From the NCBI GenBank assembly GCA_030040395.1, contig JASHTU010000231.1, forward strand, positions 1 to 16,978: a stretch of 16,978 nucleotides of DNA, in the 5' to 3' direction. How positions within the stretch are numbered: position 1 is the first letter of the stretch; the number at the start of each line of letters is the position of its first letter. Under the pieces are notes generated by a model that made no database searches, was not told the origin of the DNA, and was given only the letters and a program-made list of their open reading frames with translations. Below, in pieces: positions 2,105 to 13,198 of this stretch. The DNA comes from Acidobacteriaceae bacterium. Lineage in GTDB: Bacteria > Acidobacteriota > Terriglobia > Terriglobales > Acidobacteriaceae. The position numbers were made by a program, and so were the translations under genes.

Positions 2105-2875
2105 CTAGTCCTTCACCAGAATCACATGCAAAAAGCGCGGACCGTGCACCCCTTTGATGCGCGTCATCTCGATATCCGCCGTAGCGCTCGGCCCCGAAAT
2201 CCACGTAACCAACGAAGGAAGTCTCTTTGTTCTTTCTTCTCTAGTCCATCGTCCCTCAGTCCCCATCTTCTCGTTCCCTTGTTCTCTTGTTCCTTCGTTC
2301 CCTGACTCCTGATCCCTGACTCCTGACCCCTGTTCTCTGGCTGCGCAGCGGCTGAAATACTCCGGCAGCGTCTCCACCACCTGGCTCGCGCGCAAAATGC
2401 ACAGGTGCCAGTCCGGCAGCAGCGTCAACACCCGCCGCCCTTCGCTCGCCGAGTGGTGCAGCACAATCGTGCCCGAATCCGCCACGCCGCAAAAGGCCGC
2501 TGTCACCACCCCTTCCGCGCCTTCAATCTCCGCCGCCGTCAGCCCTTCGTCGATCCTCCAGTCAAACCCCGCCGCAAGCCACTCCGAGGGCAGTCCCGGC
2601 GGCGCAACAAACCTCCACCTGCCGCTTGCCGCAAGCTGCGTCGCAATCGTCCGCGCCAATTCCTCCGCCGCGCATTCCACCACTTCTGCATCGTACTCGC
2701 GCAACCGTTGCATCATCAGTTCCACGCGCTCGCCCGCGCTCATCGCGCCGCAACGAATGTAGTTCTGCGGCTGCGCCCCATAAGCCTCCGCGAGCGCCGC
2801 GCCCGATGCCGCCGCCCCGGGTGTGGCCCGCCGGATACGGTCCAAAACAACCTCGCGGGAAAATGACGCGCTCAT
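2105..2875 (-). CDS. lutC: L-lactate utilization protein LutC with repeat-derived insertion
   Basis: LutC is a LUD-domain (DUF162) subunit of the LutABC complex that oxidises L-lactate to pyruvate. The 256-residue product has the family segments EGVVTAAFCGVADSGTIVL (121-139), LLPDWHLCILRASQVVETLP (152-171) and ISGPSATADIE (226-236), and ends in IKGVHGPRFLHVILV. The start ATG overlaps the lutB stop as ATGA and is preceded by GGAGG with a 4-nt spacer (2880-2884). Between YFSR (173-176) and LPSLVTW (219-225) lies a hydrophilic stretch of about 40 residues rich in Gly, Glu, Arg and Gln. It is encoded by the same 7/8-bp repeat found between the genes and has no counterpart that I know in other LutC proteins. 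The reading frame is kept, so the protein is probably made with an extra loop. Confidence 0.9.
   Translation of the reverse strand: MSASFSREVVLDRIRRATPGAAASGAALAEAYGAQPQNYIRCGAMSAGERVELMMQRLREYDAEVVECAAEELARTIATQLAASGRWRFVAPPGLPSEWLAAGFDWRIDEGLTAAEIEGAEGVVTAAFCGVADSGTIVLHHSASEGRRVLTLLPDWHLCILRASQVVETLPEYFSRCAAREQGSGVRDQESGNEGTREQGNEKMGTEGRWTREERTKRLPSLVTWISGPSATADIEMTRIKGVHGPRFLHVILVKD
2273..2338. repeat. Short tandem repeat array inside lutC
   Basis: Nine contiguous units: three of 8 bp (GTTCCCTT, GTTCTCTT, GTTCCTTC) followed by six of 7 bp (GTTCCCT, GACTCCT, GATCCCT, GACTCCT, GACCCCT, GTTCTCT). More degenerate copies continue to about 2222, where GTCCCT and GTTCTTT variants are visible. 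The 66-bp core is a multiple of three, so it reads through in the lutC frame and encodes the Glu/Gly/Arg/Gln-rich loop. Confidence 0.85.
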
Positions 2876-4380
2876 TTTGCCTCCGCTCTCTTGTTCCCTT
2901 GTTCCCTCGTTCCCTCTGTCCCTGTTTTTCTCGCAGCCCACCACTCGTGAAACGTCTGCTGCGGCAGCCCGCGCAGGTCCCGCGTTTCGGTCCATTTCCC
3001 CCCAACCCCGGGCAGCGCGTGAATCCACCCATCCTTCCGCGTAAACAGCCGCAATCCCATCCGCCCCATCCATTGCGCCCCATGAAACAGCCAGGCCCGC
3101 GCGAAGATCAGATTCGCCGCCCGCAGCCCCAGGTAAAGCGGATCGAAAAACCGTCCCGCCCGTCGCCGCTGCCGGTCCGTCACCTGCGCGCGGAGATCGA
3201 TCAGCACCTCGGGAATATTGATCTTCACCGGGCAAACCTCAAAGCACGCCCCGCACAGCGACGACGCATACGGCAGCGACTGGGAGTGCCGCAGTTGTTC
3301 GAGTTGCGGCGTCAGAATCGCCCCGATCGGCCCCGGATATACCGACCCATACGCGTGCCCGCCCGTCTGCCGGTACACCGGGCACGCGTTCATGCACGCC
3401 GCGCACCGAATGCATCTTAGCGTCTGCCGTTCCCGTTCCCGCGCCAAAATCCCTGTCCGCCCGTTATCCAGCAGCACCACATGAAACCGCTCCGGCCCGT
3501 CGCCCGCCGTTACCCCGCTCCACAGCGAGGTGTACGGATTCATCCGCTCTCCCGTCGCGGACCGCGCCAGCACCTGCAGCATTACCTCCAGGTCCTGGAA
3601 CCGCGGCAACACCTTCTCGATCCCCGCCAGCGTAATCAGTGTCCGCGGCAGCGTCAGGCACATCCGCCCGTTGCCCTCCGACTCCACCACTGCCACCGAG
3701 CCCGTTTCCGCAATCAGAAAATTTGCCCCGCTGATCGCCGTTGGCACGCGCAGGAATTTCCCCCGCAAATACTGCCGCGCCGCCGCCGTCAGCGCCTGCG
3801 GATCGTCCGGCAAATCCCTGATCCCCATCCGCCGCGCAAAAATCTCCCGCACCTGGCTGCGGTTCACGTGCAACGCCGGAACCACAATATGCGAAGGCTC
3901 TCCCTCACCAAGCTGCAAAATGATCTCGGCCAAGTCAGTCTCATACACCCCGATCCCCGCGGCCTCCAGAAACGGGTTCAACTGGATCTCCGCCGAAGTC
4001 ATGGTCTTGATCTTGATGACCTCGCTGGCCTTCTCCTCGCGCAGCAAGTCCAGAATGATCCGCCGCGCCTCGGCCGCGTCCGCCGCCCAATGCACCACCC
4101 CGCCTGCCGCCGTGCACCGCGCCTCGAACTCCTCCAGATACAGGCCCAGATTCCTTAGCGCCTCATCTTTGATCCAGGAAGCTGCTGCGCGCAGCGCCTG
4201 CCAGTCCGGCTTTTCCGCCACCAGCCGCGCCCGCTTGCCCTGGATGACGTCGATCGCATGCGCCACATTCTTGCGCAGTTGCGGATCGCGCAGCACCGCC
4301 AGCGCCGCCACCGGAAACGGCGGAGCCAGCGCGGGATCGAGAATCGCGCGGCCGCCCAACTGCTCGCCCGCCGCGCTCAT
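2872..4380 (-). CDS. lutB: L-lactate utilization iron-sulfur protein LutB
   Basis: LutB carries iron-sulfur clusters of the L-lactate-oxidising LutABC complex. The 502-residue product has an N-terminal LUD domain, with MTSAEIQLNPFLEAAGI in its first half and the segment FLIAETGSVAVVESEGN further on. A ferredoxin-like region follows: C323-x2-C326-x2-C329-x3-C333-P, then GGHAYGSVYPGPIGA, then C376-x2-C379-x3-C383-P. The start ATG at 4380 overlaps the lutA stop (ATGA) and has GGAGG seven nt upstream; the open frame extends further upstream but only over lutA. The last 18 residues (GTEGTREQGNK type) are encoded by the short tandem repeat and look like an added tail. The stop overlaps the lutC start, so all three subunits are translationally coupled. 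Confidence 0.95.
   Translation of the reverse strand: MSAAGEQLGGRAILDPALAPPFPVAALAVLRDPQLRKNVAHAIDVIQGKRARLVAEKPDWQALRAAASWIKDEALRNLGLYLEEFEARCTAAGGVVHWAADAAEARRIILDLLREEKASEVIKIKTMTSAEIQLNPFLEAAGIGVYETDLAEIILQLGEGEPSHIVVPALHVNRSQVREIFARRMGIRDLPDDPQALTAAARQYLRGKFLRVPTAISGANFLIAETGSVAVVESEGNGRMCLTLPRTLITLAGIEKVLPRFQDLEVMLQVLARSATGERMNPYTSLWSGVTAGDGPERFHVVLLDNGRTGILARERERQTLRCIRCAACMNACPVYRQTGGHAYGSVYPGPIGAILTPQLEQLRHSQSLPYASSLCGACFEVCPVKINIPEVLIDLRAQVTDRQRRRAGRFFDPLYLGLRAANLIFARAWLFHGAQWMGRMGLRLFTRKDGWIHALPGVGGKWTETRDLRGLPQQTFHEWWAARKTGTEGTREQGNKRAEAK
2885..2923. repeat. Short tandem repeat array at lutB 3' end
   Basis: Four contiguous 8-bp units, GCTCTCTT, GTTCCCTT, GTTCCCTC and GTTCCCTC, followed by a variant TGTCCCT. 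The array encodes the hydrophilic C-terminal tail of LutB and ends one nucleotide before the lutC ribosome binding site (2880-2884). Orientation is the same as the other arrays. Confidence 0.8.
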
Positions 4381-5123: not shown

Positions 5124-5243
5124 CAGCTCCCGCCTGTTCAAGCCGATCCTCGAGCCAGGAGCCGATCACGTGCCTCCGATCCCGAGGAGCAGCCAGGAAA
5201 CAGAAGAATAAAGGATGGCTCCCCAACCGTCCACGTCCGCCCC

Positions 5244-5299
5244 GATCCCTAATCCCTGATCCCTGACCCCTGATCCCTGATCCCTGACACCTGTTCCCT
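5244..5299. repeat. Heptamer tandem array upstream of lutA
   Basis: Eight contiguous 7-bp units without spacing error: GATCCCT, AATCCCT, GATCCCT, GACCCCT, GATCCCT, GATCCCT, GACACCT, GTTCCCT. This is the cleanest of the four arrays and belongs to the same repeat family. It lies in the presumed lutA promoter or leader region. Heptameric arrays of this general kind are known in cyanobacteria as STRR sequences; whether these are related is unknown. Confidence 0.9.
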
Positions 5300-5527
5300 G
5301 TCCTAGTCAACCTTCCCGCACCATGCGCGTCTAATCCCATGCAATTACCCGCTTCTTTTGGCGGCCGGCTGAGCTTTTAACCCTTTCTTATATCCTGTCT
5401 TCAGCTTTCATCCCTGGGTGGCGCCATCCGCCTCTACCCTGAATGAGGTTTGCGCGAACGTGGCAAACGCTGCTCCCAATCGATCGTACCCGGGCAGAGT
5501 GGGTTTGCCGCGCCTGCGTCGTCCCCT

Positions 5528-5560
5528 CCGGCGGTAGTTTTTCCGCCCGCCGGCGTTTTT
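5528..5560 (+). terminator. Terminator-like hairpin in peptidase leader
   Basis: CCGGCGG (5528-5534) pairs with CCGCCGG (5547-5553); a TTTTT tract follows two nt later at 5556-5560. The arrangement resembles an intrinsic terminator, but it sits about 70 bp upstream of the peptidase start and on the same strand, so it may act as an attenuator. An overlapping alternative stem GGCGG/CCGCC (5530-5534 with 5543-5547) is possible. No ligand-binding domain is recognised upstream. Confidence 0.4.
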
Positions 5561-5565
5561 CAATT

Positions 5566-5601
5566 GAGACAACAACATTTCCCGGCTTCGGGGGTTGTCT
5601 C
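5566..5601 (+). promoter_or_regulatory. Compound hairpin before peptidase ribosome binding site
   Basis: An outer stem GAGACAAC (5566-5573) / GTTGTCTC (5594-5601) encloses an inner stem CCCG (5581-5584) / CGGG (5589-5592). It ends 15 nt before the AGGA ribosome binding site (5617-5620). Such a structure in an mRNA leader can stabilise the transcript or shape translation; its role here is inferred from position alone. Confidence 0.4.
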
Positions 5602-5628
5602 GGAAGAAAGGTTCCCAGGAAACTCACC

Positions 5629-8600
5629 ATGGCAAACATGCGTTCGCTCCCCCTGTATGGCCGCTTCGGCCTTTTGACCTTCTCCTTGTGCCTCCTGTGC
5701 ATTTTCACCGGTGACCTCCTCGACTCCGCCGCCTCGGCGCAAACTCCCGCCTCCGCCGTCCGCCCTGCGCCCCGCATCGTCGCCCCCATCGACGCGAGCC
5801 AGCTCGTTACCCTCAAGGGCAACGTCAATCCCCGCGCCAACGCCCAAAACGATCGCGGCCCGGTCAGCGCCTCGCTGCCCATGGCTGAAATGGTCCTCGT
5901 CCTCAGCCGCAGCCCTGAGGATCAGGCGGCCTTTGACGCCTACGTCGCCGGTGAATACGAGCCCAGCTCGCCCGACTTCCACCAGTGGCTCACGCCCGCC
6001 CAAATCGGCCAGCGCTTCGGTCCTGCCGAGTCCGACATCGCCGCCCTCACCAATTGGCTAGCCAGCCAGGGCTTCGCCGTCACCTCCATCGCGCCCGATC
6101 GCATGTCCATCGCCTTCAGCGGCACGGCCGGTCAGGCTCAAAGCGCCTTCCACACCCAGATTCACAATCTGCTCGTCAACGGCAAAATGCACATCGCCAA
6201 TATGACCAATCCGCAGATTCCGGCCGCTTTCGCGCCGGTCGTCGTGGGCGTCAAAGGCCTGCATAACTTCGTCCCCCATCCACTGCACAAAATGGGAGCC
6301 TTGGTGCGGCGTGACCCGCAAACCGGCAAATGGCAGCGGGTTGCCAGTGCGGCCTCAACCACCTCCGCGACCCCCTCCGCCAACAGCGCTCAAGCCCGGC
6401 CAGCCATGTCCACGCGCCTCCACCCTGAATTCGGCATCAACGTGCCGGCCAATTCGACTGAAGGAATCTCCGCCTACCTCGAAGAGGATGTAACCCCCTA
6501 CGATTTCGCCACCATCTATAATGTGCAGTCGCTCTGGACCGCGGGAATCAACGGAACCGGCCAAACCATCGCCATCGCCGGAACCACCGATATCTGCCTG
6601 GGTCAAAGCGGCTCACCGTGTGAAGGGGCCAACGACGTCGCCACCTATCGCAGCGCCTTCGGCCTGCCCGCCGGCCAAACTCCCAAACAGGTCAATGGCA
6701 ACTCCTACCCTCCCGGCGTGTGCACCAGCTCAACCAACGCCTGCGGCATCGGCGACCTGCAGGAGAACTCGCTCGACGTCGAGGTGTCCGGCGCCGTGGC
6801 CCCGCAGGCCCAAATTGTCCTCGTCGCCTCCGGCTACAACAACCAGACCAACCCCACCAACGACCCCATCTACGACTCTTCCTATTACATCGTCAACAAC
6901 ATCAACGATTCCACTTCCGCGGTCTATAACGCCCATGTCATGAACGTCAGCTATGGCCTGTGCGAGCTCTACGAAGGCACTTCAGGCAACGTCGCCTACT
7001 ACGATCTGTGGCAAACCGCCGCGGCCGAAGGGCTCTCCGTCTTCGTCGCCGCGGGCGATTCCGGCTCACCCAGTTGCGACGACGACGGGGATGCATACGG
7101 CAATCCCTATTCCGCCCAGTACGGTCTCTCCGTCAACGGCGTCGCCTCCACGCCCTACAACACCGCCGTTGGTGGCACGGACTTCACCTGGTGCCAGCCA
7201 ACTATTAACTCCAACGGGAACGAGGAAGGCTGCCCCAGCACGAGCTCGGCTGCCTCGCCTAACTGGAACTCAACCAACAACACCACCACCGGCGAAAGCG
7301 CCGCCAACTACATCCCCGAGAAACCCTGGAACGACACCTGTGAAGATCCCATCTGGGAAAAATACCTCGAATCGATCGCATCCCAATACCTCGGCGGGCA
7401 GTTCGGGTCCGCCGGATCGACTCCTGAACAAGCCTGCAACTGGGTCGAGAACAACTGGTATGACATCGACGAGTCTTACGAGGAAGAAACCGGAGAGCCG
7501 TTGGGCCTCGCCATCTTTGTGGACACCGTCGGCGGCGCCGGCGGAGCCAGCAATTGCGTCGCCAACAACGAGGAAACCGATCCCAATAACCCGACTTGCA
7601 CCGCCGGGGCCACATCCACCGGCGTCACCACCAACCCTGAAAATGGGGCCTCTCAAGCATCCCTCACCCTCGTGAACGACGGGTGGCCGAAACCCTCCTG
7701 GCAGACCGGCGTCTCCGGCATTCCCAGTGACGGTGTTCGCGACCTTCCCGACGTCAGCTTCTTCGCTGGCGACGGATCGCTGCAGAGCGCGACCCTGATC
7801 TGCGTTTCCCTCGATGGAGCTTGTGTGACCTCCTCGGAGGTTGGAACCAATCCGGTGACCACCGAGCCCACCGCGCAAGAGATTGGCGGAACCTCGGTAG
7901 CCTCTCCGGAAATGGCTGGCGTCATGGCGCTCATCGATGAGAAAGCCGGCGCGCCGCAGGGCCTCGCCAATCCAGGCCTCTATAAGCTGGGCGCCATGCA
8001 AACCTGGTCCGACTGCAGCGCCGCGTCGGTGAAAAACAACAGCAGTTGCTACTTCCAGGACGTCGTTTCCGGAACCAATACCATGCCCTGTAGCCTCGGC
8101 GTAGGCGGCGACGAAGGCGGCTTCGTGAATGGATACGACGAACCCCAAGAAGCGTACACCGGCGCTGTCTCCCCCAACTGCACGGCGCTCACCTCCGGCG
8201 ACGGCATCGGCACCCTCGTCAGCTCCGGAACCACCCCGGCCTATAACGCCACCACCGGCTTCGATCTTGCCACCGGCCTCGGCTCGCTCAACGTCGCCAA
8301 CGTGGTCAACGGATCGGTCTGGGTGGCCGCGGGCACGCACACGGCCACCATGACCGTAACCCTCAGCCCCACCGGGACCATCTCCTACTCGACCGCCCTC
8401 ACCGTCTCCGTGACGGTGACCGGCTCGGATGGAACGCCGACAGGCTCCGTCGTGGTTGCGGGCGGCGGCTATAACGCCAGCCAAACGCTGGATTCGAGCG
8501 GCAAGGCCTCCATCACCATCCCCGCCGGCAGCCTGTCGCCAGGTAGCGTCACACTGACCGTGACCTATGGCGGCGACACTACCTACGCCTCCACCAACCA

Positions 8601-9804
8601 GACCGAAACCGTGAACGTTTCCGCGGCGCTTCCCACGGTCACAATCACCGCGCCCAGCAGCGGCAACTTAAACAACCCAATTTCCGTGTCGGTTACCGTC
8701 AGCGGACCCTCGGGAGCGACCACCCCGACCGGAACAGTGACCCTCGCTCAGACAAACACCGGCGGTACCTACAGCTCGACGGCCGCTAACCTCTCTAGCG
8801 GTGTTGCTACCTTCACCATCCCGGCCGACACCCTCACCGCTGGAACCGATACGCTGAAGGCAACCTATAGCGGCGACTCCAATTACACGACGGCCACCGG
8901 TACAGCCACTATCGTGATCACGGGGGTCGCCCTGCTCACGCCCACTGTCACCGTCACTCCAACCACAAAATCAATCGATTCGAGCCAGAGCCTCACCTTG
9001 TCGGTGAAAGTGACCGGCACGGGCGTCACTCCCTCCGGAACCGTCACCCTCACCGCTCCCAGCCTCACTCCGGCGCCGTCGGCAACCCTTGACGCGTCCG
9101 GCTCTGCCGTCCTTACCGTTCCGGGCGGAACTCTTTCCTCGGGAACGCCCACCATCACCGTCTCCTACAGCGGCGACGCGGTGTACAGCCAAGGCACGGG
9201 TAATGCCTCCGCCGTAACTGTTACCCAATCCACCTACGCGCTCACCGCAGGCACGGTTTCGCCGTCCTCTGTCACGCCGGGCAGCTCAGCCACCGTAACC
9301 ATCACTGGCAGTACAAGCAGCACGGACTATACGGGGACCGTCTCGTTCAGCTCGGCCAACGCCTGCACCCTGACCACTCAGCCATCAAACGACAACACCA
9401 GCGCATTACCCAGTTGCTCCATTAGCGGCTCCATCACCTACCAAAACGGCGCTGCAAGCGGAAGCGCCACGGCCACGGTGTCCACAATCGCGTCCACCAC
9501 CAGCGCGCTGGCCTATCCGAAACTCCGCAACGGCAAAACCTGGATGAGCATGGGCGGCGGCGCCGTCCTCGCCTTCCTCGTCTTCCTCGGCATTCCCGCC
9601 CGGAGGCGTAGCTGGCGCGCAATGCTCGGCCTGGTGGTGCTCATCGCCGCTCTCGGCAGCCTTTCCGCGTGCGGCGGAGGCGGCGGTGGAACCACCACGA
9701 TTCCCGGCACTTCCGCCGGAAATTACACATTTACGGTAACCGGAACCGGAAACGACACAGCCAACACCGCCGGGAACACCACCTTCACCATCACAGTGAA
9801 CTGA
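5629..9804 (+). CDS. Secreted S53 (kumamolisin/sedolisin-like) serine-carboxyl peptidase with Ig-like repeats
   Basis: A 1391-residue acid-type endopeptidase of MEROPS family S53. In order: signal peptide 1-37 (hydrophobic core 13-26, ASA cleavage site); pro-kumamolisin activation domain about 70-250; catalytic domain about 290-890; three Ig-like domains about 905-1200, each ending in a GDxxY-type motif; a beta-rich segment to about 1290; and a C-terminal membrane region. The S53 residues are all visible: Glu379 and Asp383 in QENSLDVE, Asp477 in AAGDSG, and Ser756 in GGTSVASP. FDLATGLGS (878-886) matches the region of the calcium site. The start ATG follows AGGA by eight nt and begins the signal peptide. 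The C-terminus is odd: a hydrophobic segment (1308-1323), RRR at 1325-1327, a second hydrophobic segment ending in LSAC (1345-1348), six Gly and a 37-residue beta-like tail. It probably digests extracellular protein, anchored at the surface. Confidence 0.94.
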   Translation: MANMRSLPLYGRFGLLTFSLCLLCIFTGDLLDSAASAQTPASAVRPAPRIVAPIDASQLVTLKGNVNPRANAQNDRGPVSASLPMAEMVLVLSRSPEDQAAFDAYVAGEYEPSSPDFHQWLTPAQIGQRFGPAESDIAALTNWLASQGFAVTSIAPDRMSIAFSGTAGQAQSAFHTQIHNLLVNGKMHIANMTNPQIPAAFAPVVVGVKGLHNFVPHPLHKMGALVRRDPQTGKWQRVASAASTTSATPSANSAQARPAMSTRLHPEFGINVPANSTEGISAYLEEDVTPYDFATIYNVQSLWTAGINGTGQTIAIAGTTDICLGQSGSPCEGANDVATYRSAFGLPAGQTPKQVNGNSYPPGVCTSSTNACGIGDLQENSLDVEVSGAVAPQAQIVLVASGYNNQTNPTNDPIYDSSYYIVNNINDSTSAVYNAHVMNVSYGLCELYEGTSGNVAYYDLWQTAAAEGLSVFVAAGDSGSPSCDDDGDAYGNPYSAQYGLSVNGVASTPYNTAVGGTDFTWCQPTINSNGNEEGCPSTSSAASPNWNSTNNTTTGESAANYIPEKPWNDTCEDPIWEKYLESIASQYLGGQFGSAGSTPEQACNWVENNWYDIDESYEEETGEPLGLAIFVDTVGGAGGASNCVANNEETDPNNPTCTAGATSTGVTTNPENGASQASLTLVNDGWPKPSWQTGVSGIPSDGVRDLPDVSFFAGDGSLQSATLICVSLDGACVTSSEVGTNPVTTEPTAQEIGGTSVASPEMAGVMALIDEKAGAPQGLANPGLYKLGAMQTWSDCSAASVKNNSSCYFQDVVSGTNTMPCSLGVGGDEGGFVNGYDEPQEAYTGAVSPNCTALTSGDGIGTLVSSGTTPAYNATTGFDLATGLGSLNVANVVNGSVWVAAGTHTATMTVTLSPTGTISYSTALTVSVTVTGSDGTPTGSVVVAGGGYNASQTLDSSGKASITIPAGSLSPGSVTLTVTYGGDTTYASTNQTETVNVSAALPTVTITAPSSGNLNNPISVSVTVSGPSGATTPTGTVTLAQTNTGGTYSSTAANLSSGVATFTIPADTLTAGTDTLKATYSGDSNYTTATGTATIVITGVALLTPTVTVTPTTKSIDSSQSLTLSVKVTGTGVTPSGTVTLTAPSLTPAPSATLDASGSAVLTVPGGTLSSGTPTITVSYSGDAVYSQGTGNASAVTVTQSTYALTAGTVSPSSVTPGSSATVTITGSTSSTDYTGTVSFSSANACTLTTQPSNDNTSALPSCSISGSITYQNGAASGSATATVSTIASTTSALAYPKLRNGKTWMSMGGGAVLAFLVFLGIPARRRSWRAMLGLVVLIAALGSLSACGGGGGGTTTIPGTSAGNYTFTVTGTGNDTANTAGNTTFTITVN

Positions 9805-11257: not shown

Positions 11258-11854
11258 ATGAACAGCAAGGTGGTTGCGATCATAGGCAGCTACCGCAGGG
11301 GCGGCACGATCGATAGTGCGGTCAAGATCATTCTTGAAGGCGCGCGCGAACGCGGCGCGGAGACCCATGTGGTCTACCTCACCGAGCAGCACATCGAATT
11401 CTGCCGCAACTGCCGCGAGTGCATGCAAACCCCCGGCGAGCAGCGGGGCAAATGCCTGCAAATCGACGATCTGGAGCCAATCCTCCAGGAAATCGAGGCC
11501 GCCGACGCCATCGTGCTGGGCTCGCCGGTCAACTGCTACAACGTCACCGCGATCTTCCGCAGGTGGATGGAGCGCCTGGTCGGCTTTGGTTACTGGCCGT
11601 GGGGACAAAATGCGCCCCGGCCGCGCGTCAAACGGCAGCCGCGCAAAGCGGTGCTCGTGGCGTCATCGGCCATGCCCGGGTTCCTGATCCCCTGGGCCAC
11701 CGGCGCAGCGCGCGCCTTGCGCCTCACCGCCCGGATGTTGGGCGCCAAGCCGGTGGGCAAGCTGTGGATCGGGCTTGCAGCCGCGCAACCGCATCAGCCG
11801 CTCTCGCCCGGCCGCCTGCGCCGGGCCCGACGCCTGGGCTGGAAGCTGGCGTAA
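11258..11854 (+). CDS. Flavodoxin-fold NADPH-dependent FMN reductase-like protein
   Basis: A 198-residue protein of the NADPH-dependent FMN reductase / iron-sulfur flavoprotein group. The N-terminal IIGSYRRGGTIDSAV (8-22) is the phosphate-binding loop for FMN, and ADAIVLGSPVNCYNVTAIFRRWMER gives the second flavin-contacting strand and helix. Four cysteines, C49-x2-C52-x2-C55-x10-C66, resemble the compact cysteine motif of iron-sulfur flavoproteins, although the last spacing is longer than in the Methanosarcina protein; a 4Fe-4S cluster is possible but unproven. The C-terminal 35 residues are Arg-rich and look unstructured. The start ATG has a full AGGAGG six nt upstream (11246-11251). Substrate unknown. 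It lies 40 bp upstream of the VOC-RibH fusion gene, which makes flavins, so the two may be functionally linked. Confidence 0.8.
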   Translation: MNSKVVAIIGSYRRGGTIDSAVKIILEGARERGAETHVVYLTEQHIEFCRNCRECMQTPGEQRGKCLQIDDLEPILQEIEAADAIVLGSPVNCYNVTAIFRRWMERLVGFGYWPWGQNAPRPRVKRQPRKAVLVASSAMPGFLIPWATGAARALRLTARMLGAKPVGKLWIGLAAAQPHQPLSPGRLRRARRLGWKLA

Positions 11855-11894: not shown

Positions 11895-12767
11895 ATGATC
11901 AAGGGAATCGCGTTCTTGCGGCCTGTGGGCAGCGTCGAGGTCTATGACCAGTTGGCAAGTTTTTGCACAGCGCTGGGTCTGGCCGCCGGCAAGGGCTGGA
12001 AAACGGCGGATTCCCGGGGCGCGGCTTTTTGGGCTCCCTCGGGCGCGCTTGAATTTGTCGATGGTCGCATGCCCTATGCCGCCGATGTTTTCGTCGAAGT
12101 GACCGCGCTCGACGCAGCTCACCAGGCCGCGGAGAGCTGGCTGCGCGCGCAGGGCGGCGACACCGCCGCGGCCCGGATCTCGCCCGTCGAAGAGACAGAC
12201 TGGAAGGCGCGCATGTTTTTGGTTGAGCCGTCCCCGGGTTTCAAATTTGGATTCTGGGCCTGGAGCGACCCGGTTAAGGGCAAGCCGATCACCCTTGAAG
12301 GCGATCTCTCCGCGGCGGGAATGCGGTTCGCCATCGTTGTCTCGCGCTGGAATGCGGTGATTACCGAACGGCTGCTCGACGGCGCCTTCGATGCGCTGTT
12401 GCGTAGCGGCGCTCAGCGCGACGACATTGAAGTGGCGCGCGTGCCCGGCGCATGGGAGATCCCCGCGGCCGCGCGCACGATCGCTAACCGCGGGCAAGTG
12501 GACGCGATTGTGACCCTCGGCTGCCTGTTGCGGGGAGAAACCGCGCATTACGAGGCCATCTACAACGAAGTTGCGCGAGGAATCGGACAGTCGCAGCAAG
12601 AAACCGGCATTCCGCACAGCTTTGGCGTGCTCACCTGCGAGACCCTGGAGCAGGCGCTCAACCGCGCCGGCGTCAAGAGTGGAAACAAGGGATTTGAAGC
12701 CGCTGCCGCAGCTATTGAAATGGTGAGTTTGCGGCAAAAACTTCGGGCCGAAGGCGGCGCCGTTTGA
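11895..12767 (+). CDS. ribH: VOC-domain / 6,7-dimethyl-8-ribityllumazine synthase fusion
   Basis: Lumazine synthase condenses 5-amino-6-ribitylaminouracil with dihydroxybutanone phosphate, the penultimate step of riboflavin synthesis. Residues about 132-280 are a complete RibH: ITLEGDLSAAGMRFAIVVS at its N-terminus, VPGAWEIP (183-190), LRGETAHYEAI (212-222, with His218 as the catalytic His), FGVLTCETLEQALNRAG and GNKGFEAA. Ahead of it lie about 126 residues (FLRPVGSVEVYDQLASFCTA to FKFGFWAWSDP) with the size and strand pattern of a glyoxalase/VOC domain. At 290 residues it is nearly twice a normal RibH. No in-frame start codon lies at the junction; the first internal ATG (Met143) would delete the first RibH strand, so this looks like a real fusion. 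Its stop overlaps the nusB start (TTGA), implying coupled translation. Confidence 0.9.
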   Translation: MIKGIAFLRPVGSVEVYDQLASFCTALGLAAGKGWKTADSRGAAFWAPSGALEFVDGRMPYAADVFVEVTALDAAHQAAESWLRAQGGDTAAARISPVEETDWKARMFLVEPSPGFKFGFWAWSDPVKGKPITLEGDLSAAGMRFAIVVSRWNAVITERLLDGAFDALLRSGAQRDDIEVARVPGAWEIPAAARTIANRGQVDAIVTLGCLLRGETAHYEAIYNEVARGIGQSQQETGIPHSFGVLTCETLEQALNRAGVKSGNKGFEAAAAAIEMVSLRQKLRAEGGAV

Positions 12768-13198
12768 GCGCCGCCACGCACCATGGCTCCAGGCGTCGCA
12801 AAGGGCGCGAACTGGCCATGCAGATGCTGTTTCAGGCCGAGATGGGCAAGCAGAGCGCCGACGAGGTGCGCGCTACGTTCTGGAAAGCGGGCGATGAAGC
12901 CGAGCCTTCAGTGCGCGGCTTCGCTGAAGATTTGTTTCGCGTGGCCGTGGCGCGTCGCGAGGAAATCGATGCGCTCATCGCCGCCCACTCCGCGCACTGG
13001 CGGCTGGAGCGCATGCCGGCAGTCGATCGCAATCTGTTGCGCATGGCCGTGGCGGAGATGCTGGGCTTCAAAGAGACGCCGTTCCCAATCGTGATCAATG
13101 AGGCGCTGGAAATCGGCCGCCGCTACGCGGCGGCGGAGTCGATCAATTTTTTGAATGGGGTGCTGGACTCGATCGCCCGAAGCCTTATTCGCACTTAG
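12764..13198 (+). CDS. nusB: Transcription antitermination factor NusB
   Basis: NusB binds boxA RNA with NusE (S10) and supports processive rRNA transcription. The 144-residue all-helical product has the family segments RRKGRELAMQMLFQAEMG (10-27), PAVDRNLLRMAVAEML and VINEALEIGRRYAAAESINF followed by LNGVLDSIAR. The start is TTG, overlapping the ribH stop; it is chosen because the conserved RRKGRELA segment begins ten residues in and the next in-frame ATG (12818) would remove it. ribH-nusB adjacency is common across bacteria and supports both calls. Confidence 0.95.
   Translation: MSAATHHGSRRRKGRELAMQMLFQAEMGKQSADEVRATFWKAGDEAEPSVRGFAEDLFRVAVARREEIDALIAAHSAHWRLERMPAVDRNLLRMAVAEMLGFKETPFPIVINEALEIGRRYAAAESINFLNGVLDSIARSLIRT

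Follow-up and report, generated by a model that had tools for sequence, protein, structure and literature searches.

Lumazine synthase (RibH) is a vitamin B2 enzyme that normally forms a hollow shell of 60 subunits, and the locus described here raises the question of whether one such enzyme truly carries a second domain at its N-terminus and, if so, what this domain might contribute. The window, i.e. the complete stretch of 16,978 nucleotides that was analyzed (contig JASHTU010000231.1 of an Acidobacteriaceae bacterium), contains on its forward strand an intact open reading frame (11895-12767) that starts with ATG (11895..11897) and encodes 290 amino acids. Residues 1-123 (11895..12263) make up a predicted VOC-fold domain with two successive beta-alpha-beta-beta-beta units, assigned on the basis of AlphaFold2, Foldseek and VIA as well as PF00903 matches in relatives. 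A linker of residues 124-131 (SDPVKGKP, 12264..12287) was delimited by the alignment and the pLDDT values of the AlphaFold2 model (mean of 78 for residues 121-130, 48 for residue 131). Residues 132-290 (12288..12764) constitute the RibH domain including its own N-terminal strand, as evident from PF00885 and the match to the Aquifex aeolicus enzyme.

The earlier note had placed an in-frame VOC domain ahead of a complete RibH, with no start codon at the junction, and both statements hold: no start codon is present between residues 110 and 142 of the fusion reading frame. That note also named two circumstances under which the fusion would dissolve, namely translation from Met143 and a sequencing error joining two genes. 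An ATG is indeed present at residue 143, and methionine occupies this position in 45 of 64 relatives. A start at this site is nevertheless unlikely, because the conserved first RibH strand would be cut off and because residue 143 is methionine in just those 45 of 64 sequences. Residues 134-142 align with residues 4-12 of the solved A. aeolicus lumazine synthase, and G136, D137, L138 and A140 are invariant in all 65 aligned sequences and kept in 58, 44, 63 and 58, respectively, of a more diverse set of 64. An internal ATG at residue 107 was also discarded as the origin of a RibH-only product, since the codon is not conserved (methionine in just 10 of 64). GTG codons lie close to the junction in some relatives. 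A joining of two genes by assembly or sequencing error is likewise disfavoured by the relatives. A protein search retained 7857 of 7999 scored candidates at E 0.001; the 120 best listed include the protein itself, and all 119 others are long (288-303 amino acids, 97-100% query coverage, 76-89% identity). When named genomes were scanned, all of the best 80 of 524 relatives matched from query residue 1 or 2 onward, and the carriers among them comprise named isolates of Granulicella, Edaphobacter, Silvibacterium and Paracidobacterium as well as Terriglobus roseus DSM 18391, whose genome is complete (NC_018014). Of 66 fused loci, 57 offer an in-frame ATG at a distance of 117-145 codons ahead of RibH, and 9 have only GTG or TTG there. 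The VOC-RibH arrangement is thus confirmed as a genuine gene fusion, and the chance that it is an artefact of either kind is negligible.

The RibH part is recognized by PF00885 (residues 142-280, 176.7 bits against a cut-off of 26.7, E 2.9e-52) and TIGR00114 (160.9 against 84.6), and it is complete including the first strand, because residues 134-284 match residues 4-154 of the A. aeolicus enzyme over spans of equal length. The active site, which we take to consist of residues equivalent to His88, Arg127 and Lys135 of the Bacillus subtilis enzyme, corresponds to H218 (65 of 66 fused loci), R257 and K265 (each 66 of 66); E188 (66 of 66), presumably at a position known from the literature, is counted among the catalytic residues as well, and all four are present in the fusion protein. 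Just one RibH match resides in the host genome (77% complete), in which a separate ribH, the presence of which the earlier note had suggested checking, was not found. The same single match applies to 137 of 138 RibH-bearing genomes in the sample of the order. The only genome with two matches (G687) contains a fused RibH and a second, unfused and very divergent copy (loci L100 and L101). All 21 genomes searched yielded riboflavin synthase (RibE), and 20 of them also yielded DHBP synthase, the one miss being the incomplete genome of the host itself. Given the single RibH copy, the retained catalytic residues and the presence of RibE and DHBP synthase, it is most likely that the fusion protein supplies lumazine synthase activity. 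Two tryptophans reside at what are presumably active-site positions. At position 152 (W152, 12348-12350), which we take to be the substrate-stacking place that is usually occupied by Phe, 45 of 66 fused loci carry Trp; at position 187 (W187, 12453-12455), 40 of 66 do so, and neither tryptophan is present in any of the 24 unfused rows. Trp152 was rejected as a mark of the fusion, as it also occurs in 5 of 30 other relatives from the phylum.

On its own, the N-terminal part yielded no significant match in Pfam or NCBIfam. Among 44 relatives, 6 matched PF00903 at E<=0.1, and only one of them (L099) exceeded the cut-off (27.4 against 20.6). AlphaFold2 predicts two beta-alpha-beta-beta-beta units that form one sheet, and the matches listed by Foldseek and VIA comprise glyoxalases, methylmalonyl-CoA epimerases, the entry 3fcd and the mitomycin-binding protein MRD, all at an identity of only 5-21%. 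The relative placing of the two domains in the full-length model is not trusted, and the 50 rows listed in a fold search with that model were all RibH entries. Neither G28 nor E68 is substituted in any of the 38 N-domains aligned, and E68 is likewise unchanged in all 64 sequences of the larger set, in which E53 is kept in 58, W35 in 60, F108 in 59, an aromatic residue at position 121 in 58, W103 in 56 and F120 in 52. In VOC metalloenzymes the metal is ligated from strands 1, 4, 5 and 8, with at least one histidine among the ligands. No column of the N-domain alignment has a majority of histidine (maximum 25 of 64), and by inspection strands 1, 5 and 8 of the fusion protein do not show this ligand pattern. 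Chemistry of the glyoxalase I type is thus unlikely, which weakens the earlier suggestion that the domain handles a dicarbonyl compound in this manner. The conservation of E68 and of E53, an acidic residue presumably situated at a strand position where VOC enzymes often hold a metal ligand, leaves room for some chemistry.

Within the scans made, the fusion occurs solely in one family, the Acidobacteriaceae, many members of which originate from soil and peat. At E<=1e-6, the N-domain profile matched 43 of the 44 family genomes among 396 genomes sampled across the phylum and 72 of the 74 among 299 sampled across the class; the initial pass had considered no more than 11 and 14 candidates per genome, respectively. 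Outside the family, weak matches appeared in 7 of 352 (best 3e-11) and 2 of 225 genomes (best 2e-13); none of these nine covers the whole profile, eight are located in stop-free open frames of 143-481 amino acids and one contains an internal stop. In a wider family sample, at least 155 of 200 genomes, and at least 118 of 146 of good quality, match the N-domain at E<=1e-3, with the fused share lying a little below 155 of 200 because some matches, e.g. in G690 and G691, are not situated at ribH. A search for the N-domain returned 26 proteins that are apparently fused or fragments, and a profile search returned 75, of which the 14 that were read look like cut or frameshifted fusions.

All 126 family genomes in the order sample contain RibH. 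Reading of 76 of the 126 loci, among them odd ones picked on purpose, yielded 66 fused and 10 unfused genes (L072 and L073 belonging to the fused ones), and the other 50 were judged solely from open frames of 289-645 amino acids. In the sister family, all 11 loci read are unfused. A profile check of 90 loci agrees with every fused or unfused label; the N-domain profile used has 38 rows, the majority of which were drawn from the very loci that it checked. In a RibH tree, nine of the ten unfused family members adjoin two fused rows, and the tenth is L070. The fused/unfused label changes five times on the tree of 90 rows, four times without L100 and three times when two distant rows are left out as well. 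These counts, which are blind to gain versus loss and stem from a tree whose bootstrap had not settled, suggest by parsimony one gain and two losses of the VOC domain in the family.

Among neighbouring genes, the most common companion of the fusion gene is nusB (12764..13198, forward strand, TIGR01951), which is encoded in 79 of the 80 related loci, some of them incomplete. A gene for an FMN reductase just upstream (11258-11854) was considered as a partner and dismissed, as tblastn found it in just 6 of the 80 related loci, of which 77 extended far enough to include it. Other parts of the window feature 7-8 bp tandem repeats (CCCTGAT, CTTGTTCC) at 2050-2099, 2269-2332, 2890-2915 and 5240-5300, which reside between and inside genes for LUD-domain proteins of the lactate utilization type. 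In one of these genes (2105-3235, reverse strand), the LUD domain is matched by two separate stretches, and we read the sequence immediately ahead of the second stretch as encoded by the repeats. The reading frame at 5443-9804 (1453 amino acids), which contains a pro-kumamolisin activation domain as well as bacterial Ig-like repeats, likely encodes a secreted sedolisin-type protease.

Where would the VOC domain be located on the particle? Pentameric lumazine synthases are marked by a kind of loop insertion. As the RibH part keeps the catalytic residues and a capsid-type length, the usual particle is expected, which should be a 60-mer (or a pentamer) with one VOC domain per subunit on the outer face. 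In the available part of a review on lumazine synthase particles (PMC7369331), the N- and C-termini of the B. subtilis and A. aeolicus enzymes are placed on the capsid surface, peptides fused to either or both termini still gave 60-mers and protein domains such as eOD were displayed on the particles. By analogy, the VOC domain would lie outside and decorate the shell; a block of assembly, which the earlier note had considered as the other outcome, finds no support in these data.

Selection can be judged best against the nearest relative (L122), with dN/dS values of 0.117 for the VOC part and 0.109 for RibH, which indicate purifying selection on the VOC domain. Of 2080 pairs, 54 have a dS below 1, and their median dN/dS is 0.42 for the VOC part and 0.19 for RibH. 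Misaligned inserts raise these medians in part; pairs that involve L173 or L181 seem to suffer from such an insert, and the pair with L122 was preferred for this reason.

Antibiotic-binding VOC proteins, as known from bleomycin and mitomycin resistance, are metal-free and bind a planar ligand, usually at the dimer interface. We propose, with a probability of about 0.4, that the metal-free VOC domain on the particle exterior binds a planar aromatic ligand without acting as a catalyst, with a compound of the flavin pathway as the first candidate. The flavin-precursor binder considered in the earlier note is compatible with this proposal. The gene fusion, kept in most of the family, would place such a domain on each RibH N-terminus, RibH would assemble as usual with the VOC domains on its outer face, and the conserved Trp and Phe residues may hold the planar ligand as in VOC proteins of the bleomycin-resistance type. 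A flavin-pathway ligand could then serve retention, sensing or feedback control. The available part of the work on the toxoflavin-degrading enzyme (PMC3143149) describes a VOC-fold enzyme that binds an azapteridine, together with Mn(II). The more elaborate version, in which 60 metal-free VOC domains on a capsid capture or sense a pteridine or pyrimidine of the flavin pathway and thereby allow substrate retention or feedback at the protein level, is rather unlikely. With stricter filters, an FMN riboswitch (RF00050) was found in 0 of 47 genomes of the order, be they fused, unfused or from the sister family, and in 7 of 14 controls; this absence leaves room for control at the protein level without pointing to the fusion in particular, as fused and unfused genomes are alike. 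Members of this order may regulate flavins by means other than the FMN riboswitch. Stand-alone relatives of the N-domain are encoded in L210 (6417-6851) and L211 (7189-7632) and, as a generic VOC protein, in L212 (5581-6042), and riboflavin genes were not seen beside any of the three when neighbours were judged by reading translations, a point against the proposed binder. By the same reading, the gene in L212 sits between genes for a luciferase-like monooxygenase and a UbiX-like protein, downstream of a UbiD-like gene.

The strongest competitor, which we consider possible but less probable than a binder, is a purely structural role that involves no small ligand, either as a dimerizing tether or surface coat by which RibH particles are linked or stabilized, or as a dock for a further protein such as RibE or RibBA. 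VOC proteins often pair through their domains. A glyoxalase dimer is described in the available part of PMC3143149, RibE and DHBP synthase occur in nearly all genomes searched, and the domain is missing in 10 of the 76 family loci read. The faster evolution of the VOC part as compared to RibH fits such a role as well. The invariant G28 and E68 and the conserved aromatic residues, on the other hand, suggest a pocket rather than a coat. RibH itself evidently works without the VOC domain, because some relatives have lost it.

A catalytic VOC domain that converts or disposes of a reactive carbonyl or dicarbonyl compound arising from dihydroxybutanone phosphate appears improbable; glyoxalases and methylmalonyl-CoA epimerases among the structural matches and the conserved acidic residues E53 and E68 in strands speak for it, while the scarcity of histidine and the missing ligand pattern speak against it. 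Slightly more improbable still is a neutral relic that arose when a stop codon between a VOC gene and ribH was lost by chance and that persists without function. Parsimony places losses of the domain in two parts of the family, which speaks for such a relic, but it has been kept in most of the family (the 155 or more matching genomes of 200, some of them with the match away from ribH), and the dN/dS value of 0.117 for the nearest pair disfavours such a relic.

We found no literature on a VOC-RibH fusion or on a VOC domain in riboflavin synthesis, in a search that left most subscription journals outside. With the fusion, a VOC domain would enter riboflavin synthesis, and close relatives that lack the domain offer a clean comparison. 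Lumazine synthase cages serve as engineered display scaffolds (PMC7369331, available part), and a natural, conserved N-terminal decoration would show how evolution uses the capsid surface and provide a native display design. Compared with the icosahedral enzymes of A. aeolicus and B. subtilis, the RibH part is 48% and 51% identical, respectively, with a TMt of 0.91, and shares equal span length with the former as well as the catalytic residues; those enzymes lack an N-terminal domain, whereas the fusion protein has a VOC domain of 123 residues in front. Single-unit VOC proteins such as 3fcd and methylmalonyl-CoA epimerase differ in that the VOC domain of the fusion is joined to RibH and the metal-ligand set is missing. 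The toxoflavin-degrading enzyme, which was not among the structural matches listed for the N-domain, shares the VOC fold and binds a planar ring in an aromatic-lined pocket but is, according to the available part of its description, a two-domain, Mn(II)-dependent enzyme with one His and two Glu ligands and no RibH (PMC3143149). A parallel in design is offered by the eOD-GT6 and eOD-GT8 60-mers, in which foreign domains are fused to lumazine synthase and shown on the particle surface (PMC7369331, available part); these particles are man-made, whereas VOC-RibH is natural and conserved. Neither half of the protein is new; what is unusual is that the two are combined, that the combination has spread through a family and that a capsid would thereby be decorated in nature.
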